A stretch of 64,000 nucleotides of DNA from Desulfobaculum xiamenense (GTDB taxonomy: Bacteria > Desulfobacterota > Desulfovibrionia > Desulfovibrionales > Desulfovibrionaceae), in assembly GCF_011927665.1 (NCBI RefSeq), contig NZ_JAATJA010000001.1, positions 167,019 to 231,018 on the forward strand, read 5' to 3'. Position numbers and translations under genes: made by a program. This document shows, in pieces, positions 22,120-35,003 of the stretch. The notes beneath the pieces were generated by a model. It ran no database searches, had not been told where the DNA came from, and worked only from the letters and a program-made list of their open reading frames with translations. Numbering within the stretch: position 1 is the first letter of the stretch; the number at the start of each line of letters is the position of its first letter.

Positions 22120-25100
22120 TCAGAATAGCGAGCCGAGCGCTCTGGTCAGGTGTTCCACGCGCAGCCGCAGCTCGTCGAGGGCCTGCCGTGCGGTGCGCAT
22201 ATCCTCATCGCGCGCCGCGTTTTCCAGCCGCGCAGCGGCCATGAACACTTCCCCTTCGTCGAAGTAGCCGATGGTGCCCTTGAACGCGTGGGCGTGTTTC
22301 GCCAGCGCAGGGGCATCGTCGGCCTTCAGACGTTCTTCGAGATGCGTAAGTTTCTGTGCCGCATCGTTCAGGAACAGATCCACGTTTTCCTTCAGAAAGT
22401 CGCCGTTGCCGCCGAAGCTCATGGCCAGTCGGTCGGTGTCGAGCACGTAGCCGTCCGTGACGCGCTGCGCATTGTGCGACGCTGCGCCCTGTGCCTGCGC
22501 GGGCGCGAGCCGTTGGGCAATGTTGATGTTGCGCCGCAGCGCCTCGAAAAGCTCGTGAGGTCGGAAGGGCTTGGCGATGAAGTCATCCATTCCCGCCGCC
22601 AGTATGGTCGAGCGATCCTCGTCCGTGGCGTGGGCTGTCATCGCCACGATGGGCACGTGCCTCTCCCGCTTCGCGTCGTGCTCCCGGATGCGGCCGGTGG
22701 CTTCCAGTCCGTCCATGACCGGCATCTGCACGTCCATAAGGATGACGTCGAAGTCCTCGTTTTCGTACAACTCTACGGCCTGTTTGCCGTTAGTTGCCAC
22801 GGAGGCGTCCAGCCCGAAGGTTCGCAGCATGTTGACGGCGACGTTGCGGTTGATCTCCATGTCCTCGACGAGGAGGATTCGCGGTTTTGCGGAGTCCGGA
22901 TGGCCGTTGAGCATCGGGGGAGCGGTCGGTTCGGCCATCGCCCGGACGAGGGAGCGCCGAAGTTGGTCCGCGAGGACGGGTTTTGCGATGATGTCCGTGA
23001 CGCCATGTCGGCGCAGGGCCAGCAGGTCCTGCGGCTCGTCCGTCGAGGACAGGACGATGAGCGGAATGTTCGCGTAATGCGGAAGACGGCGCAGGCTACG
23101 GGCGAACGACGCCCCTGACAGGTCCGGGAGGTCGCGGTCCGCGAGAACGGCGTCGATGCGTTCATTGCGCTCGAAGGAGGTCTGGAGCAGATCGAGGGCC
23201 TCTTTGCCGGTTGTGGCGACAATGGGACGGATGCCGAGCTGTTCGAGTGATGTCCGCAGATATTTTCGGCTGGCGCGTCCACCGTCAACGATGAGGCCCC
23301 TGCGGCCGCGCAGGGTGATCTGTGAGCCGGGAGTTGGCGGTGGAAGCGGGATGGGTGATTTCGCGAATTCGATGGTGAAGGTGAATGTGCTGCCCTGCGT
23401 GTGGGCGCTTTCGACGGTGATGGCCCCCCCCATCTGGCGGACGAGTTCCGCGGCTATGGTCAGCCCGAGCCCCGTGCCGCCGTAGCGCCGCGTCGTGGAG
23501 CCGTCGGCCTGTTCGAAGGACTTGAAGATGGCTTCCCGCTTGTCGCTGTCGATGCCTATGCCCGTGTCGCTGACGGCGAAGACGATGATGGCGCTGGTGG
23601 GGCTTTCCTCCGTCATGCTGGCGGCCACGGAGATTTCGCCTTCTTCGGTGAATTTCACGGCGTTCGAGGCGATGTTGCCGAGTATCTGCCCAAGGCGGGC
23701 GCGGTCGCCCAGCAGCATGTCGGGGACGTTTTCGTCGATGCGGATGACGAAGTGCAGCCCCTTGCGCGCGGCCTCGAACGAGTGGGGATGGAGGATGTCG
23801 AAGATGCTGTCGCGCAGGCTGAAGGGGATGGTCTCGAATTCGATGTTGCCGTTCTCGATCCGCGCGAAGTCTAGAATGTCGGTGATGATGGCGAGCAGCG
23901 CGTCGCCCGATTGGCGGATGCCAGAGACGTATTCCCGCTGCCGATGCGTGAGGTGCGTGTTGGCGAGCAATTCCGTCATACCGATCACGCCGTTGAGCGG
24001 TGTGCGGATTTCGTGGCTCATGTTGGTCATGAAGACGGTCTTTGCCCGGTTTGCAGCGTTGGCTTCGTCGCGCATGCGGACGAGGTCGCGCTCCATGGAC
24101 CGGCGTTCGGACATGTCGCGCAGGATGACCTGCACGATGTTCCTGTCCACGAGCCTGCAACTCAATTCCGCCGGGAAGGACGAACCGTCCTTGCGCAGCA
24201 TGTCCAGCTCGGTCCGCCAGGTCTCGCCGTTGGCTATGCCGATCACCCCTTGTGTGAAGCGGTCCGCATCCTGCGGGGTGAAGAGCAGGGATGGCGTTTG
24301 CCCGCCGAATTCTTCCGCATCATATCCCAGCAGTTCCCGGGCGCTTGGGTTGCCTTCGATGACGCTGGCGTTTTTGTCGTGCAGGATGATGCCGTCCGAG
24401 GCGTGCTCGTAGAGGGCGCGGAAACGGCGTTCGCTCTGGGTGAGAGCTTGTTCGGCATGCTTGCGCTCCGAGATGTCCCGCACGGAGAGGCACAGGAAAT
24501 TCTGCTCGTCGAGGCATATGAAGGTGGTCGAGATTTCCACGGGGAAGACGAGACCTGTTCTGGTCTTTGCGAGGGTCTCGAAAATCGCCGGTGCCTGCCG
24601 TTCCAGGCTGGCCCACGTTTCCGTCCATGGACGCTGCGCGAGTTCCGGATGGACATCCCCCACGGTGAGGGCGAGCAGTTCCTGCTGATCGAAATCCAGA
24701 AGGCGGGCCATCGAGTCGTTGGCGAAGATGTGCGTGCCGTCTTGCCGGACCCACAGAATGCCGTCCTGCGAATTTTCGAGGGATGTCTGCGCCAGACGCA
24801 GGTCGCGCTCGGCCTGCTTCTGGGCCGTGATGTCCACATGGGTGCCCGTGGCCCGCAGTGGCCGTCCGTCGTCGGCATGCTCAACGGTTTGCCCGCGCGA
24901 GAGTATCCAGCGGAATTCGCCCTGCGCGTTGCGGATGCGGTAGGCGATCTCGAAGGTATTCCCGTGTTGTCGCGGATCGCGCATGCTCGATGCCAGTCTG
25001 CCTCTGTCCGCCGGGTGGACGAAGGCCACCCAGTCCTCAGCCCGCGCGGGGACGCTTGTGGTGTCGTAGCCGAGGCTGTTCCAGAACGACGGGCTGGTGT

Positions 25101-27378
25101 AGGCTTCGCCGGTTTCGAGGTTCCAGTCCCACATGCCTTCGGCGGCGGCCTTGGTCGCGTTGCGGTAGCGTTCGCCCGTTTCCCGTAGTGCATGTTCCGC
25201 CGTGGAGCGGGTAGAGGCCATGATGAGGATTTCCGCGACACGGGAGAGCAGCGGCTGTCCCTCTTCGCCCCATGGCGGAGCGCTTCTGCCCGAATCGACG
25301 GATATGCCGCCGATGGGTTTTCCGGAAAAGATGAGCGGGACATGAAGGATGCTGCGGACGCCGTGGCGTTCGACAAGCTCCGTCTGTTGAGGGGACGCCA
25401 GCGCGAAGGCCGACGTGTCGCGGATGTCCTGCGGTTGGCCGTCGGCGAAGGCCATTGCGAGGGTCGGAAACAGGGAGATGTGTTTTCCTTCCAGGGCCTG
25501 TCGTGCCGGTGGGATGTTACCTGCGCACCATTCGTGCGTTACGGAGAGGCTTTCTCCATCGGGCTTGAATTCCACAAGGCGGCAGTGGTCTGCGCGTAGG
25601 TGCCTGCCGATGTGGGGCAGGGCTTCCGAGATGGCTGTGGCAAAGTCGTTCTCGATCATGAGCAGGGAAACACGGGAGACGAGTTGGTCGGCCTCGGCCA
25701 TGCGGCGCAATGATTCCTCGGTTTTCGTCCTTTGGGCTACCTCGCGTGAGAGGCGGCCGTTCCAGTACACGCTGAGGAGCAAGCCCGCCGCGACGCAGCC
25801 CATGGCCGCGAGCAGCATGGGGCTTGGCGTCCAGGTGCTGTGGATGTTGATCCATTTCTCGCGGATGGCGGTGATTTCCCTTTCCTTGATCGAGATGATG
25901 GCCTTGTCGATGATGGCGGGCAACTCTGGCCAGTCGTTACGGATTGCGAAGCGGTACTCCTCGTTGAAATCGGTCGTGAAGGCCGTGCGCAGATTGGTGA
26001 CGCCTGGTTTCGAAAGGTCATGGCTGGCGTGGGGCATGCTGGCGAACATGGCGTCCGCCGCGCCGGAGGCGACAAGCTCAAGGGCGGCGCGGGCATCCGG
26101 CGTTGGAATGTAGCGCAGGTCCGGATGGCGAGAGAGGAGTTGGCGGAGCATGGGAGAATCCCCGGTGATCGCAATGAGCCTGTCGGTCAGCGAATCCATG
26201 GCCGTGATGTCGCGTTGGCCTTCGCGGACGATGACGACGCCGGGGAGCCGGAGGAATGGTGCGGAAGGAAGAAGACGTTCGCCGCCAGTTGCGGAGGTGT
26301 CCGTGGCGACACGCATGTCCGCGAGGTCATGCTCGATGGCGTCTGTGGGGGTGGCCGCAGGGACGGACTCGAAGCGGATGCCGAGGCGGGTTGCGATGAG
26401 GGCGAGGATGTCGTGGGTGATTCCGCGAAATTCTCCGTCGTCGATGAATCCCAGCGGACGGTCGTCGGGCGCGACGGCCATGCGGATGACGGGATGCACG
26501 GCCAGCCATTTCTTTTCGTGTTCCGTGAGGCCGAGATCGTCCCGACGCGGGCGGAAGTGGCGAAGTGACGTGTCCTTGATCCAGCGGGCTTCGATTTCGG
26601 CGAGTTCCGCATGGCTGATGGACTGAAACCCTTTTCGGACAAGTGCGGAAAGGTGTGGCGTCGCATGGGGAATGGCGGGGTGGAGCATGCTTCGGATGAT
26701 GGCCGAGGGCGACACGTTGAAATCCGCAGATAGGCCAAGGGCAGTCAGCCGGGAATCCATGACCGGGGCCGGACCGGCGAATGCGCCGATTCGCCCTTCA
26801 TGTGCGGCGAGGATCATCTGTTCCGGACTGCCAAAGAAGATGATGCGCGCGTCGGGGATTTTTTGTTGCAGGTGACTTCCTGTTGGCGAATTGGCGATGA
26901 CGCCCACATCCCATCCGCCGAGGCCTTGTGGGGTTGCTTTGGGGCCATGGCCGACTGGCGAATAGAGATGGATGCCCGTCTCGTAAATGGCGGGGGCGAA
27001 GTCGAAGCGATCACGCAGTTCCTGCGTCGGCGCGAGGGCTGCATGGATGTCTGCGCGTCCACTGGCGATGGCTGCAAGGGCCTCCTGTGTGTTGGCGGGC
27101 AGAAACCGTACCTCGCGTTGCGTACGCTGCGCCCAGAGCTGCCAGATGTCCACGAGGAGTCCCGCAGCCTTGCCGCTGGCCCCGATGTAAGCCAGCGGAG
27201 GTGCGTCGCTGTCCATGGTCACGATGATGGGGGGCTCGCCGTTTGGGGGCGTTGAATTCGTCTGGGATGCCGATGCGCCAGCCGTCGCGAGGGCAACGGT
27301 TATGAAAAGCGCGAAGATTAGAACCTTCGGGCCGTTTCGTGTTGGAGTATCGGCTGCCTGGCGGAGGATGTTCATCAT
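22120..27378 (-). CDS. BvgS-like hybrid kinase (2xSBP-TM-GAF-3xPAS-HisKA-HATPase-REC-REC-Hpt), about 1752 aa
   Basis: Start at one of the adjacent ATGs (27378 or 27375); no clear ribosome site is visible. A signal segment (about residues 15-37) leads into two type-3 solute-binding modules (about 50-275 and 290-505), a TM helix (about 512-532), a GAF domain (about 555-735), three PAS domains (about 740-1110), HisKA with SHEIRTPLNG, HATPase (DTGIGID, GGTGLGL), two receivers and an Hpt with HAFKGTIG. The first receiver has lost one acidic residue (IVDGGRAS in place of a DD pair) but keeps an aspartate in LADRDLPDLSG. The second is canonical (MDVQMPVMDG). It is convergent with the MCP gene (28-base gap) and divergent from the repeat-protein cluster. 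Confidence 0.92.
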   Translation of the reverse strand: MMNILRQAADTPTRNGPKVLIFALFITVALATAGASASQTNSTPPNGEPPIIVTMDSDAPPLAYIGASGKAAGLLVDIWQLWAQRTQREVRFLPANTQEALAAIASGRADIHAALAPTQELRDRFDFAPAIYETGIHLYSPVGHGPKATPQGLGGWDVGVIANSPTGSHLQQKIPDARIIFFGSPEQMILAAHEGRIGAFAGPAPVMDSRLTALGLSADFNVSPSAIIRSMLHPAIPHATPHLSALVRKGFQSISHAELAEIEARWIKDTSLRHFRPRRDDLGLTEHEKKWLAVHPVIRMAVAPDDRPLGFIDDGEFRGITHDILALIATRLGIRFESVPAATPTDAIEHDLADMRVATDTSATGGERLLPSAPFLRLPGVVIVREGQRDITAMDSLTDRLIAITGDSPMLRQLLSRHPDLRYIPTPDARAALELVASGAADAMFASMPHASHDLSKPGVTNLRTAFTTDFNEEYRFAIRNDWPELPAIIDKAIISIKEREITAIREKWINIHSTWTPSPMLLAAMGCVAAGLLLSVYWNGRLSREVAQRTKTEESLRRMAEADQLVSRVSLLMIENDFATAISEALPHIGRHLRADHCRLVEFKPDGESLSVTHEWCAGNIPPARQALEGKHISLFPTLAMAFADGQPQDIRDTSAFALASPQQTELVERHGVRSILHVPLIFSGKPIGGISVDSGRSAPPWGEEGQPLLSRVAEILIMASTRSTAEHALRETGERYRNATKAAAEGMWDWNLETGEAYTSPSFWNSLGYDTTSVPARAEDWVAFVHPADRGRLASSMRDPRQHGNTFEIAYRIRNAQGEFRWILSRGQTVEHADDGRPLRATGTHVDITAQKQAERDLRLAQTSLENSQDGILWVRQDGTHIFANDSMARLLDFDQQELLALTVGDVHPELAQRPWTETWASLERQAPAIFETLAKTRTGLVFPVEISTTFICLDEQNFLCLSVRDISERKHAEQALTQSERRFRALYEHASDGIILHDKNASVIEGNPSARELLGYDAEEFGGQTPSLLFTPQDADRFTQGVIGIANGETWRTELDMLRKDGSSFPAELSCRLVDRNIVQVILRDMSERRSMERDLVRMRDEANAANRAKTVFMTNMSHEIRTPLNGVIGMTELLANTHLTHRQREYVSGIRQSGDALLAIITDILDFARIENGNIEFETIPFSLRDSIFDILHPHSFEAARKGLHFVIRIDENVPDMLLGDRARLGQILGNIASNAVKFTEEGEISVAASMTEESPTSAIIVFAVSDTGIGIDSDKREAIFKSFEQADGSTTRRYGGTGLGLTIAAELVRQMGGAITVESAHTQGSTFTFTIEFAKSPIPLPPPTPGSQITLRGRRGLIVDGGRASRKYLRTSLEQLGIRPIVATTGKEALDLLQTSFERNERIDAVLADRDLPDLSGASFARSLRRLPHYANIPLIVLSSTDEPQDLLALRRHGVTDIIAKPVLADQLRRSLVRAMAEPTAPPMLNGHPDSAKPRILLVEDMEINRNVAVNMLRTFGLDASVATNGKQAVELYENEDFDVILMDVQMPVMDGLEATGRIREHDAKRERHVPIVAMTAHATDEDRSTILAAGMDDFIAKPFRPHELFEALRRNINIAQRLAPAQAQGAASHNAQRVTDGYVLDTDRLAMSFGGNGDFLKENVDLFLNDAAQKLTHLEERLKADDAPALAKHAHAFKGTIGYFDEGEVFMAAARLENAARDEDMRTARQALDELRLRVEHLTRALGSLF

Positions 27379-27758
27379 CAATCATTACATGAATGGAGAA
27401 TGCGCAGGCAAGAGGAATGCGCCAGTATGCGGAGGTGGAGTGGGTTGAATGCCTTGAATATTGTCATTGGCGTCATGTGATGTCCTTTGGAATTGAAGGA
27501 TGTTTTGCGTCATTCTTTTCTTTTGTGTGTTGCCGTCCGGAATGATGGCTGCTTTTTTGCGGTGCGCGAGACTTGTGCGGTCCGCCATGATGAATGGATT
27601 GACATCGCTTGCGTGATTCATGACATTGAACATGGACCCATGATCGCCGATAGTTCCTGCCACATAACGGTTTTCAGTTGATTGCCCAGAAATTCTCCCT
27701 GCCGTCGCGAAGGGTTCCCGGTGAAACATGGAGGCATTCGCAACACAAGGAGGTCATC
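27379..27758. other. 380-base gene-free divergent promoter region
   Basis: It separates the minus-strand kinase from the plus-strand repeat-protein gene. Its base composition is noticeably more A/T-rich than the surrounding genes. No open frame here looks like a gene. It holds one plausible promoter for the repeat-protein gene (27626-27654) and should also carry the kinase promoter, which I could not place. Confidence 0.6.
27626..27654 (+). promoter_or_regulatory. Possible sigma70-type promoter for the repeat-protein cluster
   Basis: TTGAAC at 27626-27631 and GATAGT at 27649-27654 are separated by 17 bases. Both boxes match 4 of 6 consensus positions. A transcript from here would have a leader of about 100 bases. 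Only one such match was sought by eye, so a chance match is possible. Confidence 0.35.
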
Positions 27759-29900
27759 ATGAAGAAGAAGCCTGGAAAGGGCATCGAGAAGCTTGAGGAC
27801 CGGATCGCTCCGGGCATGATCGGGGCAGAGTTCGCGGAAGGCGCGGAGGCGATGACCGGCACCGATGCCCCGGATGATTTTCATCCTGAGGACATGGGAC
27901 CGGAACTGACGCCCGAGGAGATGACGAAGCTGGATGAATTCGCACAGCAGCTTCAGGGGGACATGAGTCCCGACGAGGTGCGCGGGATTTTCGATGGCTG
28001 GGCAGACGGCTTGCCCCCCGATGCGCCCATTGAGGAGATTCGGGCCGGGTTCGAGGAGAGCTTCAGCCAGTGGGTTGCCGATGGCGCGCCGCCGTTCCCC
28101 GATGAGGGCCTGACCGCCGAGGAACTTATGCATGGTCCCGGGTTCCTTCCTTCGCCAGATATGCCACCGGACATGCCACCGGACATGCCACCCGAGGGTG
28201 GAGAGTACATGCCGCCGGGTGGTGAAGGCTATATGCCCCCGGGCGGCGAGGGTGGCGAGTACATGCCGCCGGAAGGCGAATACGCCGGGCCTGCGCCGGG
28301 TGAGGAGTACATGCCTCCCGATGACGGCGGAATGTATCCGCCACCGGAGGGCGAAGGCTACATGCCACCCGAGGGTGGAGACTATATGCCTCCGGGCGAT
28401 GAAGGCTACATGCCCCCGGGTGGCGAGGGTGGCGAGTACATGCCTCCGGAGGGCGAATACGCCGGGCCTGCGCCGGGCGGGGAATACATGCCTCCCGATG
28501 ACGGTGGAATGTATCCGCCACCAGAGGGCGAGGGCTACATGCCGCCCGAGGGTGGAGACTATATGCCCCCGGGTGATGAAGGGGGAATGCCCCCGGGTGA
28601 CGAAGGGGGAATGCCTCCGGGCGATGAGGGCTACATACCCCCGGGTGGCGAGGGTGGCGAGTACATGCCTCCCGATGACGGCGGAATGTACCCGCCACCA
28701 GAGGGCGAGGGCTACATGCCGTCCGAGGGTGGAGACTATATGCCCCCGGGTGACGAAGGGGGAATGCCTCCGGGCGATGAAGGCTACATGCCCCCGGGCG
28801 GCGAGGGTGGCGAGTACATGCCGCCGGAGGGCGAATACGCCGGGCCTGCGCCGGGTGAGGAGTACATGCCTCCCGATGACGGTGGAATGTACCCGCCACC
28901 GGAGGGTGAGGGCTACATGCCGCCCGAGGGTGGAGACTATATGCCTCCGGGTGATGAAGGCGGAATGCCTCCGGGTGATGAAGGCTATATGCCTCCGGGC
29001 GGCGAGGGTGGCGAGTACATGCCGCCGGAAGGCGAATATGCCGGGCCTGCGCCGGGTGAGGAATACATGCCTCCCGATGACGGCGGAATGTATCCGCCAC
29101 CGGAAGGCGAAGGCTACATGCCGCCCGAGGGTGGAGACTATATGCCCCCGGGTGACGAAGGGGGAATGCCTCCGGGCGATGAGGGCTACATGCCCCCGGG
29201 CGGCGAGGGTGATATGGAACACTTCGAGCCTTCGCCCGAGTTGAAGGCGCAGGCCGAGCAGTTCGCGTCGCAGCTTCAGGGCGAGATGACACCCGACGAG
29301 GCCAAGGCTCTCATGGACGACTTCATCGCGGGCCTGCCGCCGGATGCCCCGGTCGATGACATCGCGGCGCAGTTGCAGGCCGGTTTCGATCAGTGGGTGG
29401 CCGATGGCGCGCCCCCGTTCCCGCCAGACGGCATGACGGCCGATGAGCTCTTCGGCGGTCCGCACGAGGGCGAACACATGGATGATCACCACGATTACGG
29501 CGGCGAGGAAGGCCCCTTCATGGAGGGCGATATGGGCCATGTGCCCCCGCCGCATCCCGACGGATACGTCAACGAGTTTATCTCGCCGCTGTTCGATGGC
29601 GAACCGGCTGGCGCGGACGGAGAACCGGCATGGGGGCTCGACTACAACGCGGCCGATCCCTCGGCCAGCACGTGGACGCTGCCTCTCTCGCCGGATGCAG
29701 TGGACATGGGTGCCAATCAGTTCACGGTCCCGGCGGACATGGTTGATTCGTCCTCGCCCCTGCCGCCCGAGGCAACGCCCAATCCCGACGGCTCCTACAC
29801 GATCAACTCCTGGCCGATTTCTGATATGGTGGACAATGGCGACGGCACCATCACCCTGATGGTCGACATAGGCGCTCCGCCCGAGGGACCGCCTGTCTAG
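27759..29900 (+). CDS. Acidic Pro/Gly/Met/Tyr-rich repeat protein with LEDRIAPG N-terminal motif, 713 aa
   Basis: ATG at 27759 follows a perfect AAGGAGG. The N-terminus is basic, then carries IEKLEDRIAPG (about residues 10-20). This recalls the short LE(P/D)R-type motif at the start of some large exported proteins, but there is no ordinary signal peptide. A conserved module of about 75 residues (…LQGDMSPDE…GLPPDAP…QWVADGAPPF…) occurs at about 47-127 and again at about 490-570. Between them lies about 360 residues of repeats built from EYMPPEGEY, AGPAPGEEYMPP, DDGGMYPPPEGEGYMPP and GDEGGMPPGDEGYMPPGGE. A His/Asp-rich stretch (EHMDDHHDY) and a non-repetitive C-terminal domain follow. I infer a surface or secreted, possibly metal- or cation-binding protein, handled by the three genes downstream. 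Confidence 0.85.
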   Translation: MKKKPGKGIEKLEDRIAPGMIGAEFAEGAEAMTGTDAPDDFHPEDMGPELTPEEMTKLDEFAQQLQGDMSPDEVRGIFDGWADGLPPDAPIEEIRAGFEESFSQWVADGAPPFPDEGLTAEELMHGPGFLPSPDMPPDMPPDMPPEGGEYMPPGGEGYMPPGGEGGEYMPPEGEYAGPAPGEEYMPPDDGGMYPPPEGEGYMPPEGGDYMPPGDEGYMPPGGEGGEYMPPEGEYAGPAPGGEYMPPDDGGMYPPPEGEGYMPPEGGDYMPPGDEGGMPPGDEGGMPPGDEGYIPPGGEGGEYMPPDDGGMYPPPEGEGYMPSEGGDYMPPGDEGGMPPGDEGYMPPGGEGGEYMPPEGEYAGPAPGEEYMPPDDGGMYPPPEGEGYMPPEGGDYMPPGDEGGMPPGDEGYMPPGGEGGEYMPPEGEYAGPAPGEEYMPPDDGGMYPPPEGEGYMPPEGGDYMPPGDEGGMPPGDEGYMPPGGEGDMEHFEPSPELKAQAEQFASQLQGEMTPDEAKALMDDFIAGLPPDAPVDDIAAQLQAGFDQWVADGAPPFPPDGMTADELFGGPHEGEHMDDHHDYGGEEGPFMEGDMGHVPPPHPDGYVNEFISPLFDGEPAGADGEPAWGLDYNAADPSASTWTLPLSPDAVDMGANQFTVPADMVDSSSPLPPEATPNPDGSYTINSWPISDMVDNGDGTITLMVDIGAPPEGPPV
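28140..29215 (+). repeat. Tandem coding repeats, five 177-201-base units
   Basis: The same segment (codons for DDGGMYPPPEGEGYM) recurs with its first codon ATG-equivalent at 28321, 28498, 28675, 28876 and 29077. Spacings are 177, 177, 201 and 201 bases, all multiples of three. The AGPAPG sub-block is missing from the third unit. The array keeps all three forward frames largely free of stops, which creates long false open frames on both strands. Confidence 0.9.
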
Positions 29901-29908
29901 GATTCCTG

Positions 29909-29944
29909 TGGCGGAGCGTCGTTGCTGGAAACGGCGCTCCGCCA
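29909..29944 (+). promoter_or_regulatory. Stable stem-loop between the repeat-protein gene and the HlyD operon
   Basis: TGGCGGAGCG-T-CGTT (29909-29923) pairs with AACG-G-CGCTCCGCCA, a 15-pair stem with one T-G wobble and a loop of about 6 bases. It begins 9 bases after the repeat-protein stop. No T-run follows, so it is more likely a 3' stabiliser, partial attenuator or processing site than a full terminator. It could set expression of the abundant product above that of the export genes. Confidence 0.55.
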
Positions 29945-30054
29945 TGCCGGGCCGTTGCATTCTGGGGCAGTTCCCGAGGGACGGGAGCATGCCTGCCCGC
30001 GTGTCGAAACATCCGCATTCGGACGGTTGTCGTCCGCATGGAGGAGCGTGAGGC

Positions 30055-32082
30055 ATGGACAGTCCCGAATCCATGGACACACAGTGCAATCGGGCGATTA
30101 CCGATGACGAATTGCCGTCCGATCCCGTCGAACGCGCGCAGCATCTCGAACGGCGTTTGGCGCGGTGCAAGCTCGCCCGTGATCTGACGCGCGAATTCGT
30201 TTCCACCACGGACATGAAGCGGCTCATGGGCGTGATCTTCCAGCGCGTGCTGGAGGCGATAAACGCCGAGGCCGGTTCCCTGTGGATGGTGGACTGGCGC
30301 ACGCGCGAGAGCGTGTGTCATCAGGCCGAGGGACCGGCGGCGGACAAGGTGCTCGGCCTGCGGCTCCCGCTGGGCAAGGGCGTGGTCGGCAAGGTCATTC
30401 AGGAAAATTCGCCGCAGGTCGTGCTCGACACCACCCGCGACGAGCGCTTTGCCGCGGATGTGGATAAGACCTCGGGCTTCACCACCAAGTCCATGATCTG
30501 CGTTCCCCTCGTCGTGGACTGCCACGTCTACGGCGCTATCCAGATTCTCAACAAGAAGAGCGGCTTCGAGAGCCGTTTCACCAACGACGACTTTCTCCTC
30601 GTGCAGGATATCGCGGGCAGCGCTGCCATTTCCATCAAGAACGCCCGGCTTCTCGAATCCGAGAGCAAGGTCAAGGAGATGGGGATACTGCTGCGCATCT
30701 CGCGGCAGGTGTCGTCCACGCTGGATCTGAATCAGGTTCTCGGCCTTGTGGTCAATATGACGGGCGAGCTTGTGGAATTGAGTCTTGGCGCGGTGGGCCT
30801 GCTCGATGAATCGAAGAACAGCCTGATGCTCGCGGCCCTGTCCGGCGAGACGTCCATAGATGCGGGCGATTCCCGCCAGAAGGCCATGCTCGCGCTTATG
30901 GAGAAGACGCGCGAGGCTGGCCGTACCGTCTACGTTCGCGATCGTGAAAGCTACACGCGGCAGATGCGCGGGCAGCGGACCGTGTGGTTGGAATACCTCG
31001 AAGGCAACGGCCTTGAATCCGTGTGGGCCATGCCCCTTTCCGACGAGGAAGGGCAGCTTGGCGTCCTGTGGTTCGAGAGTGCGACGCCCGGCTTCGCGGA
31101 TGGTGGCAAGGCCGACCTGCTGTCGATCCTTGCCAATCAGACCGCGGTGGCCGTGCGCAATGCCAGCCTCTATCAGCGCGTGCCCTTTGCCGAAACCCTC
31201 GGAAAGGTTGCGGAGCGCGGGCAGCGGGCGTTCGCCGGGTGGCGCAAGTGGGCGGTCGCCGGAGCCGTGGCGCTGGTGCTTCTGCTTGCGCTGCATCTCG
31301 TGCCCCGTTTCCGCTCGTTTACCGGCGATTGCGAGGTGGAAGCGCGGCTGGGCTACGGTGTTTTCCTGCAAGTGGCGGGGACGGTGGCCGAGGTTGTCGT
31401 GAAGGAGGGGGACACCGTTCGCGAGGGCGATATGCTGGCCCGGCTGGACCCCGCACCGCTGCGTCTGCGTCTGACGCAGGCGTCGTCGCAGCTTGCGGTG
31501 GTGGAGCGTAAGATCGTGGAGGCTCGCGCGGCGGGTAGCGCCGCCGAGGTCCGGCGACTGGCGGCCGAGCGCGAGGCGCTGCGGGCCGAGGCCATCAAGG
31601 CCGGGGCCGACCTCGGCAAGGTGGACATCCGTGCCCCGCGTGGCGGGGTGGTGCTGTCCACAGGGCTGGAGGAGCTGGTGGGCGCGAGTCTGCCGGTGGG
31701 CGCGGAACTGCTGCGGCTCGCGGAATCCGGCAAGCTGACCGTGGTGGTGCAGGTGCCGGAGGATGTGGTCATGGACATCGCCGTGGGGCAGGACGTGGTG
31801 GGGGCGGTGCGCTCCGCGCCGAACCTGCGCTTTCGCGGGCGGGTGGCGCATGTGGGGCGGTCCTACAGTCTGCCCGCCGAGGCCGCCGAGTCTTCCGGAA
31901 ATGGGGAATCTGGCGAGATAGGGCGCGAGGCCTTCGTGGCCGAGGTGGAGGTGACGGAATCCGAGGTGGCGTTGCGTCCCGGCATGAGCGGCAAGGCGCG
32001 CGTGGCGACGCCGGGCGTGTCCGTGGTGCTGCGGCAGTTGCGCCGTGTGGTCAACCTGCTGGCCTTCTGGCTGGGACCGTAG
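30055..32082 (+). CDS. GAF-GAF-TM-HlyD fusion: periplasmic adaptor with cytoplasmic sensor domains, 675 aa
   Basis: ATG at 30055 with GGAGG about 10 bases upstream. Residues about 45-200 and 215-375 are two GAF domains (LWMVDW, VPLVVD...GAIQILNKK; AMPLSDEEGQLGVLWFES). A single membrane helix lies at about 398-420. The C-terminal third is an HlyD/RND-adaptor fold: a barrel-sandwich half-motif AGTVAEVVVKEGDTVREGD, a short helical hairpin and beta-barrel regions ending at LAFWLGP. This places the GAF domains inside the cell and the adaptor in the periplasm. The next gene begins 13 bases later. Adaptors normally bridge an inner-membrane pump to an outer-membrane channel. Here the partner is likely the M50 protein. 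Confidence 0.85.
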   Translation: MDSPESMDTQCNRAITDDELPSDPVERAQHLERRLARCKLARDLTREFVSTTDMKRLMGVIFQRVLEAINAEAGSLWMVDWRTRESVCHQAEGPAADKVLGLRLPLGKGVVGKVIQENSPQVVLDTTRDERFAADVDKTSGFTTKSMICVPLVVDCHVYGAIQILNKKSGFESRFTNDDFLLVQDIAGSAAISIKNARLLESESKVKEMGILLRISRQVSSTLDLNQVLGLVVNMTGELVELSLGAVGLLDESKNSLMLAALSGETSIDAGDSRQKAMLALMEKTREAGRTVYVRDRESYTRQMRGQRTVWLEYLEGNGLESVWAMPLSDEEGQLGVLWFESATPGFADGGKADLLSILANQTAVAVRNASLYQRVPFAETLGKVAERGQRAFAGWRKWAVAGAVALVLLLALHLVPRFRSFTGDCEVEARLGYGVFLQVAGTVAEVVVKEGDTVREGDMLARLDPAPLRLRLTQASSQLAVVERKIVEARAAGSAAEVRRLAAEREALRAEAIKAGADLGKVDIRAPRGGVVLSTGLEELVGASLPVGAELLRLAESGKLTVVVQVPEDVVMDIAVGQDVVGAVRSAPNLRFRGRVAHVGRSYSLPAEAAESSGNGESGEIGREAFVAEVEVTESEVALRPGMSGKARVATPGVSVVLRQLRRVVNLLAFWLGP

Positions 32083-32094
32083 GCGGAGGGCGCC

Positions 32095-34173
32095 ATGGCC
32101 GACATCATTCCCCAGCCTCTGCGTGACGATCTGAAAATACGCAGGCAGGTGCTGTCCAACGAGACGTGGTACGTGGTCAAGGAGCCGGAACGTCAGCAGT
32201 ATTTCCGGTTCGACCCCGGCCAGTACGGCATGCTGGAACTTTTTGACGGGCATAGCAGCCTGTCGCGGCTGGTGAGCGCCTTTAATGCGAAGAGCGAGGA
32301 ATACGAGTACGATAGGGATTCCGCCGTGGCGCTCTACAATTCCGCGCGCGAATACCGCCTGTTGCGCCGTACGCGTGAGGAGGAGAACGCCGCGCTTGTC
32401 GAGCGCCTGCGCGAGACGCACAAGCAGCGGTTCCTGCAACGGCAGGGTTCGTTGCTCTTCATGCGGTTCCATGTCTACGATCCCGACGCCCTGTTCGACC
32501 GCATCATCGACCGTATCCGCTTCATGTGGAGCCCTGCGGTGGTTCACGTCTGCGTCGGCCTCATGCTTCTGGCGCTGGTTCTCGTCTTCGTGGAACATAG
32601 GCGATTCGCCAGCGATTTCCTTGAGGTGTCGTCGTACGTCTTCGGCAGCCTGACGGGGCTACTCACGGCGTGGCCGCTCATCCTCGTCGTCATCGCCTTG
32701 CACGAGTTCGCCCACGGCCTGACATGCAAGAACTTCGGCGGCGAGGTTCACGACATGGGCTTCCTGCTCCTCGTGCTCATCAATCCCTGCATGTACTGCA
32801 ACGTCAACGACGCATGGCTCTTCGAGAACAAGCGCCACAAGATGTACGTGGTCTTCGCCGGGGTCTACTTCGAACTGCTTCTCGGTTCGCTTGCGGTGTT
32901 CGTGTGGTTCTTCACGGACGTCGGCGCGCTGGTCGGGCGGCTGGCCTTTGTGGTCATCACGGTGTGCATCTCCGCCACGGTGCTTTTCAATCTCAATCCG
33001 CTCATGAAGCTCGACGGCTACTATCTGCTGTCCGACTACATGGAACTGCCCAACCTGCGGCAGAATTCGCTGTCCATGCTCTCGTGGGGGCTCAAGCGCC
33101 ACCTGCTGCGTATGCCCGTGGACGCGCCGATGGAGCCGTCCCCGCGTGAGACGCGCATCTTCATCACCTACGGAGCGGGGATGTGCCTGTATCTGGGGAC
33201 GGTATTCGGCAAGATACTGTCCATGGGCTACGGCTTCGCGCGGTCCAAGGGCTTTGTGGCCGTGCTGATCTTTTATTGGCTTGTGTTTCGCCTGTTTTCG
33301 AAGCTGCTCGGATCGTGGCCCGGCACGCTGAAGGCGCTGGTGGTCCGGTCCTTCTGGAAGGGCGGGCGTCGGCGGTTCACCGTGGGGGCGTTGGCCGTGC
33401 TGGCCGTGATTCTCGCCGTGTGGTCGCCGCGCATGCGCGTTTACGCGCCGTGCGAGGTCGGGGCGCAGATGATCGTCGTTCACGCGCCGGAGTCCGGTTT
33501 CGTTACATCCGTGGCCTACGGTCAGGACCGCCTGCCGCGTTGTGCGCCGGGGGATGTGCTGCTGGCCCTGTCATCGCCGGACCTCGAACTTGAACGGCGG
33601 CAGCTGGAGGCCCGGCGTGAGGCGCAGGAATTGGAGCGGCGCATGGCGGGGCTTTCCGGACAGGGCGGTGCGCTACGGCGCTTGGCCGCCCGCGAGATGG
33701 CCCTCGTAGCCGAGGCGCGCCTGCTTGACGCGCGGACCTCGGCCCTTGCCGTGCGCCTGCCGCAGGGGAGATGGATCGTGGACGGTCCACCGCCGCGTTC
33801 GCTTTTCGGGCGGCATTACGCCAAGGGCGAAACGGTGCTCTCGCTTATTCCGCGCGAGAGTCGCGTGGCTGATGTGATTATCGACCAGACTGACCTGTCG
33901 TATGTGGCGGTGGGGCAGGAGGTGCGCGTTCTGCTGCCGTCCGGGCCGGTTGGAACCATTGCTGGCGTGGTGCAGAGCATCGCCGAGGTTGGGCAGAAGG
34001 ACGGGGTGACGCGTCGCTTCGACGTGCGCGTGCATGTGCCCCTCGCTGCGGATGGGCCGGAACCGCCGCCTGGCATCGGGGGCATGGCGGTCATCATGGG
34101 CGAGCCGCGCCCGCTGTGGCAGCATGTGCTGCGGCCGCTCAAACGAATGACGAGGTATGACCTGTGGCTATGA
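32095..34173 (+). CDS. PqqD-like / M50 site-2-type metalloprotease / HlyD fusion, 692 aa
   Basis: ATG at 32095, 13 bases after the previous stop, with GGAGGG upstream. Residues about 1-90 look like a PqqD-type winged helix (VKEPERQQYFRFDPGQYGMLELFDG), which in known systems binds leader peptides. Several membrane helices follow (about 138-440), carrying the zinc motif HEFAH at 203-207 and the second M50 motif NPLMKLDG with D307. After the last helix (about 425-445) comes a periplasmic HlyD-like barrel/hairpin region (about 450-690). So one protein joins leader recognition, intramembrane proteolysis and an adaptor arm. Similar M50-adaptor fusions occur near peptide or repeat-protein genes in other bacteria. 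The stop overlaps the next start (ATGA). Confidence 0.86.
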   Translation: MADIIPQPLRDDLKIRRQVLSNETWYVVKEPERQQYFRFDPGQYGMLELFDGHSSLSRLVSAFNAKSEEYEYDRDSAVALYNSAREYRLLRRTREEENAALVERLRETHKQRFLQRQGSLLFMRFHVYDPDALFDRIIDRIRFMWSPAVVHVCVGLMLLALVLVFVEHRRFASDFLEVSSYVFGSLTGLLTAWPLILVVIALHEFAHGLTCKNFGGEVHDMGFLLLVLINPCMYCNVNDAWLFENKRHKMYVVFAGVYFELLLGSLAVFVWFFTDVGALVGRLAFVVITVCISATVLFNLNPLMKLDGYYLLSDYMELPNLRQNSLSMLSWGLKRHLLRMPVDAPMEPSPRETRIFITYGAGMCLYLGTVFGKILSMGYGFARSKGFVAVLIFYWLVFRLFSKLLGSWPGTLKALVVRSFWKGGRRRFTVGALAVLAVILAVWSPRMRVYAPCEVGAQMIVVHAPESGFVTSVAYGQDRLPRCAPGDVLLALSSPDLELERRQLEARREAQELERRMAGLSGQGGALRRLAAREMALVAEARLLDARTSALAVRLPQGRWIVDGPPPRSLFGRHYAKGETVLSLIPRESRVADVIIDQTDLSYVAVGQEVRVLLPSGPVGTIAGVVQSIAEVGQKDGVTRRFDVRVHVPLAADGPEPPPGIGGMAVIMGEPRPLWQHVLRPLKRMTRYDLWL

Positions 34174-35003
34174 GAAACGTCGCGCGTTGGCTTGAGGTCT
34201 TTCGTCTCGCGTTGCTCACGGTGGTGTGTGGGCTTGTTCTTGCTGTGCCGTGGACTGTGGCGGCGCAGGATGGTTCGCCGGGTGGGGCCGCCACCATTGT
34301 CCAGACCGGGGCGCAGAGCGTGGGCGGCGTGGTGCGTCCGCTGCGGCGGGCGGTGCTGTCCTTTGCCCGGGATGGCCTCATCGTATTCCTCGCCGCCGAG
34401 GGGGCCGAAGTCGCCGCTGGCGACGTGCTGGGGCGGCTGGATGAACGTCAGGCTGTGGCGAATCTGCGCAACGCCCGCATCCGTACTGAGGCCGCCGCCA
34501 TCGGCGTGGATGAGGCCCGCCACGACCGCGACGTGCAGAAGGATTTGCTGAAGGACGACATCATCACCGAGGAGGCATACAGGAATCTGGAGATCAAGGT
34601 GCGCTACTCGCAGATGCAGCAGCGCAGTTCCGAGGCCGCCGAGGCTGTGGCGGAGCTGGACGTGGACGATTGCACGCTACGTGCGCCGTTTTCCGGCGTG
34701 GTGGCCCGCGCCGAGGGCAACGTGGCGGAGTGGGCCGGGCGGGGCAAGCCGATCATGGAACTGGTGGACGTGACGCATCTTGAACTGACCACGGACATCC
34801 CGCCGGAACTGGCGCGCTCCCTTGCCACTGGGACCGAGGTCGCCATTCGCGATGCGGGGGAGGCCGTGGGGCTGGCGACGGTGCGCGTGATGCTGCCGCT
34901 TCTCGATCCGGCCAGCGGTCTGCGCCGCGTGATCTGGGACGTTCGACCCGCTGCGGATGTGCTTTCCGGGCGGTATGTGGTGCTCGATTCGTGGTGGCAA
35001 TGA
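34170..35003 (+). CDS. HlyD/RND-type periplasmic adaptor with signal peptide, 277 aa
   Basis: ATG at 34170 overlaps the previous stop as ATGA; GTG 34164 is an alternative. A signal peptide covers about residues 1-33 (ending WTVAAQ). The mature part has the barrel-sandwich halves (LSFARDGLIVFLAAEGAEVAAGDVL and LRAPFSGVVARAEGNVAEW) flanking a helical hairpin (about 90-155), then a beta-barrel. It is short compared with usual 350-400-residue RND adaptors and seems to lack a membrane-proximal domain. It is the last gene of the repeat-protein cluster. I infer that it forms the periplasmic part of one machine with the two preceding proteins. No TolC or ABC gene is adjacent. Confidence 0.85.
   Translation: MRNVARWLEVFRLALLTVVCGLVLAVPWTVAAQDGSPGGAATIVQTGAQSVGGVVRPLRRAVLSFARDGLIVFLAAEGAEVAAGDVLGRLDERQAVANLRNARIRTEAAAIGVDEARHDRDVQKDLLKDDIITEEAYRNLEIKVRYSQMQQRSSEAAEAVAELDVDDCTLRAPFSGVVARAEGNVAEWAGRGKPIMELVDVTHLELTTDIPPELARSLATGTEVAIRDAGEAVGLATVRVMLPLLDPASGLRRVIWDVRPAADVLSGRYVVLDSWWQ

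Follow-up and report, generated by a model that had tools for sequence, protein, structure and literature searches.

A gene cluster of Desulfobaculum xiamenense encoding a candidate RRE/M50/HlyD-based machine for processing and export of a motif-bearing repeat protein

Here, we describe four consecutive genes of Desulfobaculum xiamenense, found in a stretch of 64,000 nucleotides (the window), which probably encode a cargo protein together with a dedicated processing-and-export machine built on RRE, M50 and HlyD parts. A wider reading, which we hold tentatively, is that such machines form a separate class of Gram-negative trans-envelope secretion, in which an RRE-site-2-protease-HlyD fusion replaces the ABC, RND or MFS transporter, reads and cuts an N-terminal LExR leader (LEPR-XLL or LExR-IAP) and, together with GAF-HlyD, HlyD and TolC proteins and in one branch a SecA-like motor, exports products from peptides of about 45 residues to surface giants of more than 12,000 residues. 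LExR-IAP is a variant described here, alongside LEPR-XLL. If the machine is the route of the LEPR-XLL/DUF4347 giants, which are found in many genomes, it would explain how very large surface proteins leave the cell; a membrane protease would then be the gatekeeper of an HlyD/TolC conduit, and RiPP-style leader recognition would be tied to giant-protein secretion. In the openly accessible papers searched, there was neither a description of the module nor an export route given for these giants. LEPR-XLL is mentioned in PMC10868602 and PMC9611531, PMC12153261 concerns another adhesin family, and a term search in the RRE-Finder paper (PMC7470986) returned neither M50 nor HlyD.

Layout of the cluster and the candidate cargo

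The genes and the features of the first of them are as follows:

27747..27753, +, AAGGAGG ribosome-binding site, 5 bases 5' of the gene 1 ATG (read from the sequence)
27759..29900, +, gene 1, acidic repeat protein of 713 aa, likely cargo (ORF, composition)
27792..27815, +, LEDRIAPG motif, residues 12-19 of gene 1, likely recognition/cleavage signal (shared motif)
27897..28157, +, duplicated domain, copy 1, about 85 residues (56% identity to copy 2)
28161..29216, +, repeat array rich in Pro, Gly and Glu, with 24-base and roughly 200-base units (repeat analysis)
29250..29504, +, duplicated domain, copy 2, predicted helical (model pLDDT 75.7, pTM 0.55)
30055..32082, +, gene 2, GAF-HlyD adaptor of 675 aa (ORF, Pfam)
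32095..34173, +, gene 3, RRE/PqqD-like - M50 - HlyD protein of 692 aa (Pfam, structure model, alignment)
34170..35003, +, gene 4, periplasmic HlyD adaptor of 277 aa (ORF, Pfam/NCBIfam profiles, hydropathy)

Distances between the genes are 154 and 12 bases, followed by an overlap of 4 bases; a preliminary description had the same positions, strand and gaps of 154 and -4, with a second gap of 13 bases that is corrected here to 12. Gene calls come from a purpose-written script, which missed one HlyD ORF in locus L094, and start positions are therefore approximate; for gene 4, GTG at 34164 is a possible alternative start. An antisense ORF of 894 aa (27618-30302) lies over gene 1 because of its repeats. 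That gene 1 is an artefact was considered and rejected, given its good ribosome-binding site and a motif common to distant genes. The promoter scan gave nothing upstream of gene 1, Rfam had no match anywhere in the window, and gene 3 was without match among phage records; terminator-like sites (10 observed, 4.5 expected) were left unused.

The product of gene 1 is, as had been read from the letters, an acidic repeat protein with LEDRIAPG and without a standard signal peptide. It has a pI of 4.05 and a net charge of -148, with no Cys, 8 Lys and 3 Arg, 6 of these 11 basic residues falling within residues 1-15 by eye count; hydropathy analysis found no hydrophobic stretch, and both copies of the duplicated domain flank the repeat array. 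The LEPR-XLL model (NF012209, cut-off 17 bits) leaves its N-terminus unmatched at E<=10; among N-termini of relatives, 3 of the 5 tested match, 2 of these above 17 bits. Outside the motif, similarity to the cargo of L068, a Planctomycetota MAG locus, is weak (1.3e-14) and compositionally biased, and a repeat profile scores 9.0 bits, which 2 of 1000 shuffles reach.

The fusion protein and its two adaptors

Gene 3 was divided into the following parts:

32098..32370, +, RRE/PqqD-like leader-binding domain (predicted), residues 2-92 (6jx3_B Z 10.2, 5sxy Z 8.1)
32461..33297, +, site-2-protease core, residues 123-401 (3b4r Z 9.5, 169 aligned; Pfam M50)
32701..32715, +, HEFAH (HExxH) zinc motif, residues 203-207 (H, E and H invariant in 58 sequences)
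33364..34131, +, HlyD adaptor region, residues 424-679 (Z 11-13 to MacA, EmrA, MexA and others)

In the AlphaFold model of the protein (mean pLDDT 88.5) the first part is a winged helix with an RRE fold, where 84 of 85 residues align to 6jx3_B, 5v1u and 5v1v match at Z 9.8 each, and PqqD (5sxy) follows. Pfam PqqD matches 19 of the 58 members of our alignment, gene 3 itself being unmatched. For the protease part, H203, E204, H207, N299, P302, D307 and G308 (HExxH, NPxxxxDG) are invariant across all 58 sequences, and Pfam M50 (PF02163) matches 58/58 at E<=0.01, gene 3 included, its own 20.6 bits lying under the 27.2-bit cut-off; a PF02163 search of the window's own genome did not recover gene 3. 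The M50 call rests mainly on sequence, since helical bundles can give Z values below about 13 by chance. Foldseek listed nothing but adaptors; the matches to RRE domains and to the protease came from a second structural alignment, and a PDB sequence search returned mostly adaptors, with 3b4r at E 7e-4. The proposed M50 protease with a PqqD-like domain and an adaptor arm is upheld by the model matches, the invariant HExxH and the 58/58 M50 matches. The best match of gene 3 is the M50 protein of L068 (354 bits, runner-up 244). Within the window's family, a single-protein search matched 15 of 99 genomes, the best non-self match being 27% identical and several matches spanning just the HlyD part.

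Pfam assigns GAF and HlyD to gene 2, and HlyD to genes 3 and 4, giving three genes with HlyD-type periplasmic adaptors in the cluster; these matches bear out the GAF-bearing adaptor and the periplasmic adaptor named earlier. In gene 2 GAF occupies the N-terminal half and HlyD starts at about residue 423, and its best match is again from L068 (GAF-HlyD, 504 bits, runner-up 216). Gene 4 has a hydrophobic segment at the N-terminus, and the L068 HlyD protein is not its best match.

This anatomy admits two other readings. The RRE fold resembles lasso-peptide leader binders, and the daptide metalloprotease model NF041824 aligns (positions 16-372 of 379) to residues 24-408 of gene 3 at 2.8e-51, scoring 174.8 bits where the cut-off is 300. 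Both fit a RiPP-like maturation, in which M50 would be an RRE-guided leader peptidase only, the product would exit otherwise and the HlyD parts would be a scaffold; we consider this unlikely, on evidence from the relatives described below. Gene 3 differs from the daptide and epipeptide metalloproteases (NF041824, NF058609) in that lower score, in its extra HlyD adaptor and in a far larger cargo. The second reading is regulated intramembrane proteolysis. Signalling roles are known for M50 proteases such as RseP, and GAF domains are sensors, so that M50 might cut a membrane regulator upon envelope stress sensed through GAF/HlyD, with the repeat protein as a bystander. The motif gene, however, recurs next to the machine across phyla, and casual inspection of gene listings brought no recurrent sigma/anti-sigma partner to notice, which makes this account quite improbable.

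Recurrence of the motif and of giant proteins beside the machine

We compared 105 loci, comprising the best 80 of 593 listed, 23 stretches, one short contig and the window, where the stretches and the short contig are the M50-bearing places from two further searches, all except G213; the set was picked by similarity to gene 3 and is not a random sample. Loci L064-L067, kept in the counts, have M50 genes that are shorter and lack additional HlyD genes; they look RiPP-cluster-like by eye. Further HlyD genes lie near the machine in 89/105 loci, a description rather than a test, as the HlyD profile was built from the same loci; the contrast is 2/188 among more distant ORFs. Rare co-occurrence of the genes, named in the preliminary description as a finding that would refute it, was checked for and did not apply.

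The pattern LE[DEPQ]R[IV]AP adjoins M50 in five loci (window, L068, L074, L110 and L131), and the four outside the window belong to other phyla, with cargo of 43 to 1520 residues. L068 has the same four parts and a LEDRIAP cargo. In the tree, the window, L068, L074, L104, L131 and L094 form one clade (support 100/98), in which 4 of 6 members have an adjacent motif gene; L110, with a LEPRIAPA cargo, falls outside it. Three members of this clade (L074, L104, L131) have no further HlyD neighbour by profile: the stretches of L074 and L104 are cut short, L104 having one weak HlyD-like ORF (7e-6), and the flanks of L131 extend 3.2 and 4.8 kb, so that this locus shows just the M50-HlyD protein and a peptide of 43 residues. 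Such motif peptides of 43-58 aa in L074 and L131, a paralogue that the L074 peptide has on another contig, and the lone protease of L131 speak for RiPP-like maturation. Against it, a peptidase alone needs neither the HlyD genes of the 89 loci nor the TolC-like neighbours described below, and cargo-like giants that adjoin the same machine reach 4,000 residues and more. We therefore prefer a processing-and-export machine.

It could be argued that these genomes commonly contain LExR-like motifs and that the link reflects the choice of loci through gene 3. Indeed, the strict motif was defined after about nine examples, and 80 of the loci are the best of the 593 listed. The strict motif occurs within the first 120 residues of 21/588 ORFs, as compared with none in 192,653 residues further in, none in reversed sequences and a shuffle mean of 0.55; one of the 21, L127 (459 aa), is methyltransferase-like by eye and probably a chance match. 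Where giants had initially been cut off, 4/4 recovered starts carried the motif. The strict motif is present in 19/105 loci, few partly because contigs end and LEPR-XLL matches scatter, being spread across contigs in some Planctomycetota genomes; in 14 control genomes the LEPR-XLL model matched 7/14 at E<=1, one over the cut-off. LEDRIAP[AG] is nearly unique: as a DNA pattern it has one match in 199 genomes of L068's phylum, which is the L068 cargo gene. Across 395 genomes from the phylum of the window, a looser pattern gave 14 matches against 4 reversed, with LEDR in the window's only; a looser pattern used in 7 genomes gave 18 matches against 15 for its reverse and is therefore uninformative by itself. 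Two other pattern matches were LEERIAP, in short ORFs of G173 and G272. Because motif and machine recur together elsewhere, their link is more than chance, and with the DUF4347 test given next we assign hardly any weight to a sampling effect.

Among 297 genomes of the window's phylum, the machine occurs in 10/12 with DUF4347, a marker of LEPR-XLL giants, and in 5/285 without it (Fisher 1.5e-13), where machine-positive means a profile row that spans the M50 part with E<1e-70, a cut set after the list was seen, and where three candidates were scored per genome, machine absence being non-exhaustive. The raw profile search was positive in 297/297 genomes because of HlyD. The count omits weaker M50-bearing rows, namely G185 C65 at 6e-63, G213, G113, G374 and, at 1e-32, those of G173 and G099; with G213, G113 and G374 counted positive, the result is 10/12 versus 8/285 (p 2e-12). 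G346 (two in-frame TGA) and G373 (without the RRE part) were counted positive, and G236 and G369 (DUF4347 below the cut-off) excluded; relatedness makes some genomes non-independent, G302 and G345 representing one genus. DUF4347 occurs without the machine in G239 and G259, and the machine without DUF4347 in 5 of 15 genomes, the window's among them. In the three giants examined, DUF4347 follows the LEPR-XLL domain and the cargo is cadherin-like. In the public record of Thalassospira, one protein of the operon is annotated as LEPR-XLL, one Magnetospirillum repeat protein has no motif at its annotated start, and of 79 matched plasmid records 3 were examined.

Channel, putative motor and proposed mechanism

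In 12 clusters examined, an OEP/TolC match was found in 11 among picked neighbours. The window's version is reduced: its cluster has no outer-membrane channel gene, its genome has one SecA_DEAD match and no second SecA, and its cargo is unmatched by the LEPR-XLL model. In one sister branch the machine has a truncated SecA-like ATPase as its neighbour, and an extra SecA is present in 10/29 machine-positive versus 0/26 machine-negative genomes (p 7e-4), or 8/23 versus 0/26 (p 1e-3) in the window's phylum only.

Several TolC-like genes (9 matched stretches) lie elsewhere in the window's genome, the usual partners of HlyD adaptors are ABC, RND or MFS pumps, and in Tautonia (L117) an ABC-exporter-like gene is 636 bases from the machine. 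One could thus suppose that the cargo leaves via general Sec or a distant type I system and that the cluster is an efflux-adaptor operon minus its pump. Cargo N-termini, however, are without a Sec-type hydrophobic segment, the 15-residue hydropathy maximum near the motif being 0.09-1.9 in 28 motif proteins (second highest 1.63) versus 2.27-2.73 in 7 controls. The ABC family has no match in the four proteins (Pfam/NCBIfam) nor in the window stretch (Walker A/signature regex), and over the 105 loci the regex found ABC-like ORFs in L117, L102 and L106 only, with two SMC/UvrA-like ORFs set aside by eye; the claimed absence of an ABC transporter agrees with this rarity near the machine. As the RRE, M50 and HlyD fusion is also conserved, we judge export by Sec or a distant type I system to be highly unlikely.

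Under our preferred reading, a dedicated machine, an N-terminal leader ending in LExR-IAP would be bound in the cytoplasm by the RRE/PqqD-like domain of gene 3, and the M50 core in the inner membrane would cut near the motif end while the N-terminus moves into the membrane. Three parts would together form a periplasmic conduit docking on a TolC-type channel: the HlyD region of gene 3, the GAF-HlyD protein of gene 2, whose GAF domains perhaps sense a cytoplasmic ligand, and the HlyD protein of gene 4. For the window's machine, this channel may be borrowed from elsewhere in the genome. In the sister branch the adjacent SecA-like ATPase could power transport; for the window's version, either housekeeping SecA or folding or binding on the outside may supply the drive.

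Such a machine would share with type I secretion and tripartite efflux the HlyD adaptors, the frequent TolC-like channel and, in relatives, giant cargo without a Sec-like start, and differs in its inner-membrane part, a fusion and not an ABC/RND/MFS transporter, and in a putative signal that is N-terminal. PCAT/NHLP bacteriocin exporters consist of a leader-cleaving C39-ABC protein and HlyD; like them, the proposed single machine would recognise a leader, cut and export, but through a zinc intramembrane protease and an RRE domain in gene 3, and no C39 match (Pfam, NCBIfam) was found among the four proteins. Compared with LEPR-XLL proteins, whose genes adjoin the machine in relatives, the window cargo has the N-terminal LExR in the form LEDRIAPG, in a genome without DUF4347. 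The SecA-like neighbour recalls accessory Sec (SecA2), from which the window departs by its single SecA and by M50/HlyD/TolC partners. The preliminary description had proposed that the M50/HlyD assembly recognises and cleaves or exports the repeat protein without an ABC transporter; that the genes belong together, that the LExR motif recurs, that a Sec-like signal is lacking and that ABC genes are rare all stand, and recognition, cleavage and export are carried over as proposals. New with respect to that description are the LEPR-XLL/DUF4347 giants, the TolC-like channel, the SecA-like ATPase branch and the very short motif peptides.

The four-gene cluster and the gene 3 protein

Re-measurement of the open reading frames gave intergenic distances of 154 bases, 12 bases and then an overlap of 4 bases, and therefore the map of four consecutive genes proposed in the preliminary description is right to within one base:

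27759-29900, +, gene 1: acidic protein of 713 residues, the putative cargo
30055-32082, +, gene 2: GAF-HlyD protein
32095-34173, +, gene 3: fusion of RRE/PqqD-like, M50 and HlyD parts
34170-35003, +, gene 4: HlyD adaptor with a hydrophobic N-terminus

The gene 1 protein starts with a short, basic stretch containing LEDRIAPG (residues 12-19; the single LEDRIAP site in its genome). Two copies of a domain of about 85 residues follow, separated by an array of repeats rich in Pro, Gly and Glu, and the protein ends with a C-terminal region. An antisense open frame of 894 residues across gene 1 (27618-30302, -) was taken as a by-product of the repeats. Upstream and divergent lies a gene for a 1753-residue hybrid sensor kinase (22120-27381, -) with solute-binding, GAF, PAS, receiver and Hpt domains.

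Pfam alone left the identity of gene 3 uncertain, with an M50 score below cut-off and no match to PqqD; among 58 aligned relatives, M50 was matched in all 58 and PqqD in 19 (E<=0.01). A daptide protease model aligned with residues 24-408 (2.8e-51, score below cut-off). The AlphaFold model built on the 58-relative alignment (mean pLDDT 88.5, pTM 0.76) resolved three parts. In this model residues 2-92 fit leader-bound RRE structures (6jx3_B with Z 10.2, rmsd 3.3 and 84 aligned; 5v1u and 5v1v, Z 9.8 each) and PqqD 5sxy (Z 8.1, 86 aligned, rmsd 3.0), and residues 424-679 fit HlyD adaptors (Z 11-13). Residues 123-401 fit the site-2 protease of Methanocaldococcus (Z 9.5 over 169 aligned positions, rmsd 4.5), a Z that helical bundles can reach by chance. 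All 58 sequences share H203, E204, H207, N299, P302, D307 and G308, as an active zinc protease would require.

Neighbours of gene 3 relatives

We collected 105 loci (L plus a number) with a gene 3 relative, HE..H being mandatory in each: the best 80 of 593, 24 from further searches and the window. With a HlyD profile built from these same loci, at least one further HlyD-type gene was found within four genes at 89 of them and at least two at 69, versus 2 HlyD-like among 188 more distant ORFs. When one neighbour of about 500-660 residues was picked from each of 12 loci, 11 matched the TolC family (OEP). A Walker A/signature regex for ABC proteins matched five ORFs across the 105 loci, lying 636 bases (L117), 3.8 kb (L102) and 8.8 kb (L106) from the machine, i.e. 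the gene 3 relative with its HlyD adaptors; the remaining two resemble SMC and UvrA by eye. The L117 gene (Tautonia), ABC-exporter-like by regex and by eye and encoding 743 residues, is an exception to the ABC-free pattern. At L064 and L065 shorter RRE-M50 proteins, with no further HlyD genes nearby, stand in apparent radical-SAM/RiPP clusters (by eye).

The simplest reading for the putative cargo is that the RRE domain would recognise its leader, intramembrane cleavage at the motif would follow, and the product would pass via the HlyD adaptors to a TolC channel. Such a module would act like a tripartite exporter, but its inner-membrane part differs. The window lacks some of the tested defining features of each of the type I, PCAT and SecA2 systems, and therefore the module was filed under none. 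Its component parts are known families; the open-access full-text literature searched yielded no description of the module and states no export route for LEPR-XLL, a named domain.

Motif proteins, giants and the SecA-like gene

A strict LExR pattern was present within the N-terminal 120 residues in 21 of 588 called, start-complete ORFs (HlyD/M50 genes excluded) at 19 of 105 loci, versus a mean of 0.55 in shuffles and none in reversed N-termini or in the remaining 192,653 residues. Since the pattern was drawn up after about nine examples, eight stretches were fetched for missing starts of giants, the very large LEPR-XLL/DUF4347-type cargo candidates. All four recovered starts carried the motif (LEERVLFD, LEQRILLS, LEPRMMFD, LEPRIMFD); three other stretches ended before the start and one held no giant. 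The NCBIfam LEPR-XLL model matched three of five relatives' N-termini, two above cut-off, and did not match that of the window cargo. Near the motif the highest 15-residue hydropathy was 0.09-1.9 in 28 motif proteins (second highest 1.63; window 0.51), versus 2.27-2.73 in seven controls, namely six proteins of the OEP family and that of gene 4; the motif proteins lack a Sec-like hydrophobic segment there.

Plasmid clusters are described from 3 of 79 matched records. On a Thalassospira plasmid the annotation gives, all in the same direction, a LEPR-XLL protein (4033 residues from record coordinates), DUF3467, HlyD, the gene 3 relative, an adaptor and TolC. A Pseudosulfitobacter plasmid carries an Ig-type gene of 38 kb starting ..FEPRVLLSAD, then DUF3467, an adaptor, PqqD/M50 and a 'translocase', and a Magnetospirillum plasmid an ELWxxDGT repeat protein, with no motif at its annotated start, TolC, an adaptor, HlyD and the gene 3 relative. 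The small DUF3467 protein is encoded between giant cargo and adaptors at L206:6717-7058 and L207:6651-6947.

DUF4347 lay downstream of the motif in three of five cargo proteins scanned; the L068 and L110 cargo matched no Pfam family. Among 297 genomes of Desulfobacterota, the window's phylum, 12 had DUF4347 above cut-off and 15 a gene 3 relative covering the M50 part (E<1e-70). The machine, as scored by this gene, was present in 10 of the 12 genomes with DUF4347 versus 5 of 285 without (Fisher p 1.5e-13, relatedness uncorrected). The longest DUF4347 frame, of 15,080 residues (genome G247, contig C1, match at 95473-95877), lies on a contig that also carries a gene of the machine and one for a SecA-like protein.

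A truncated SecA-like ATPase as a possible motor

One branch of the family has a gene for a truncated SecA-like ATPase next to that for the RRE-M50-HlyD protein. It directly adjoins the machine at nine loci (L045:6721-8697, L047:7001-8980, L056:5948-8032, L206:11108-13090, L058, L095, L121, L122 and L138), and at L106, L128, L078 and L109 a SecA-like gene lies 1.8-3.8 kb off. The proteins have 627-749 residues by ORF calls, with TGEGK[ST] in 12 of 13 (regex); NCBIfam SecA models matched all four scanned, and Pfam found SecA DEAD, preprotein-binding and P-loop domains in the one scanned. Across a chosen set of 55 genomes, 10 of 29 machine-positive and 0 of 26 machine-negative ones had an additional SecA at E<1e-50 (p 7e-4), the negatives all being from the window's phylum; within this phylum the counts were 8 of 23 versus 0 of 26 (p 1e-3). 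The ATPase is a possible motor; a single SecA is present in the genome of the window, and likewise in that of L068.

The window's own branch

L068, on a Planctomycetota MAG contig, has all four parts: M50, HlyD, a 1491-residue repeat protein with LEDRIAPAMM and, on the opposite strand, GAF-HlyD. Genes 2 and 3 find their best matches in the L068 GAF-HlyD and M50, respectively; the best matches listed for gene 4 do not include the L068 HlyD. The window pairs with L068 (97/89) in a tree of 38 sequences, within a clade (100/98) that also holds L074, L104, L131 and L094, with L110 outside. The DNA pattern for LEDRIAP[AG] matched only the L068 repeat-protein gene in 199 genomes of that phylum, and a looser one gave 14 matches in 13 of 395 genomes of the window's phylum versus 4 for the reversed control (LEDR in the window only, LEER in two, the others LEAR, FEAR or unlike).

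A motif gene is adjacent in four of the six clade members; the available locus DNA of L104 and L094 has none. LE[DEPQ]R[IV]AP adjoins the machine in L110 (proteins of 1144 and 1520 residues), in L074 (58 residues, 90 bases upstream; 53 residues on the opposite strand, about 0.6 kb upstream) and in L131 (43 residues, 75 bases upstream). GAF-HlyD, HlyD and M50 are consecutive in L094, the L074 sequence stops within the M50 gene, and the L104 flanks (1.8 and 2.7 kb) hold at most one weak HlyD-like ORF. In L131 M50-HlyD is complete, with no further HlyD gene found in flanks of 3.2 and 4.8 kb. Within the branch, therefore, the full set is seen in the window and L068, and peptide plus protease in L074 and L131.

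The short motif peptides and L131 favour the main rival reading, a RiPP-type leader peptidase, against which stand the giant size of cargo elsewhere and the TolC genes. A family of 49-58-residue peptides, encoded beside the M50 gene or elsewhere in the genome that carries it (L074:9713-9889, +; L074:9262-9423, -; L190:1471-1620, +), has leaders ELEERIAPS or ELEERVAPS and Pro/Gly-rich tails; a peptide of the L074 kind lies on another contig of that genome, and these could be unrecognised secreted peptides.
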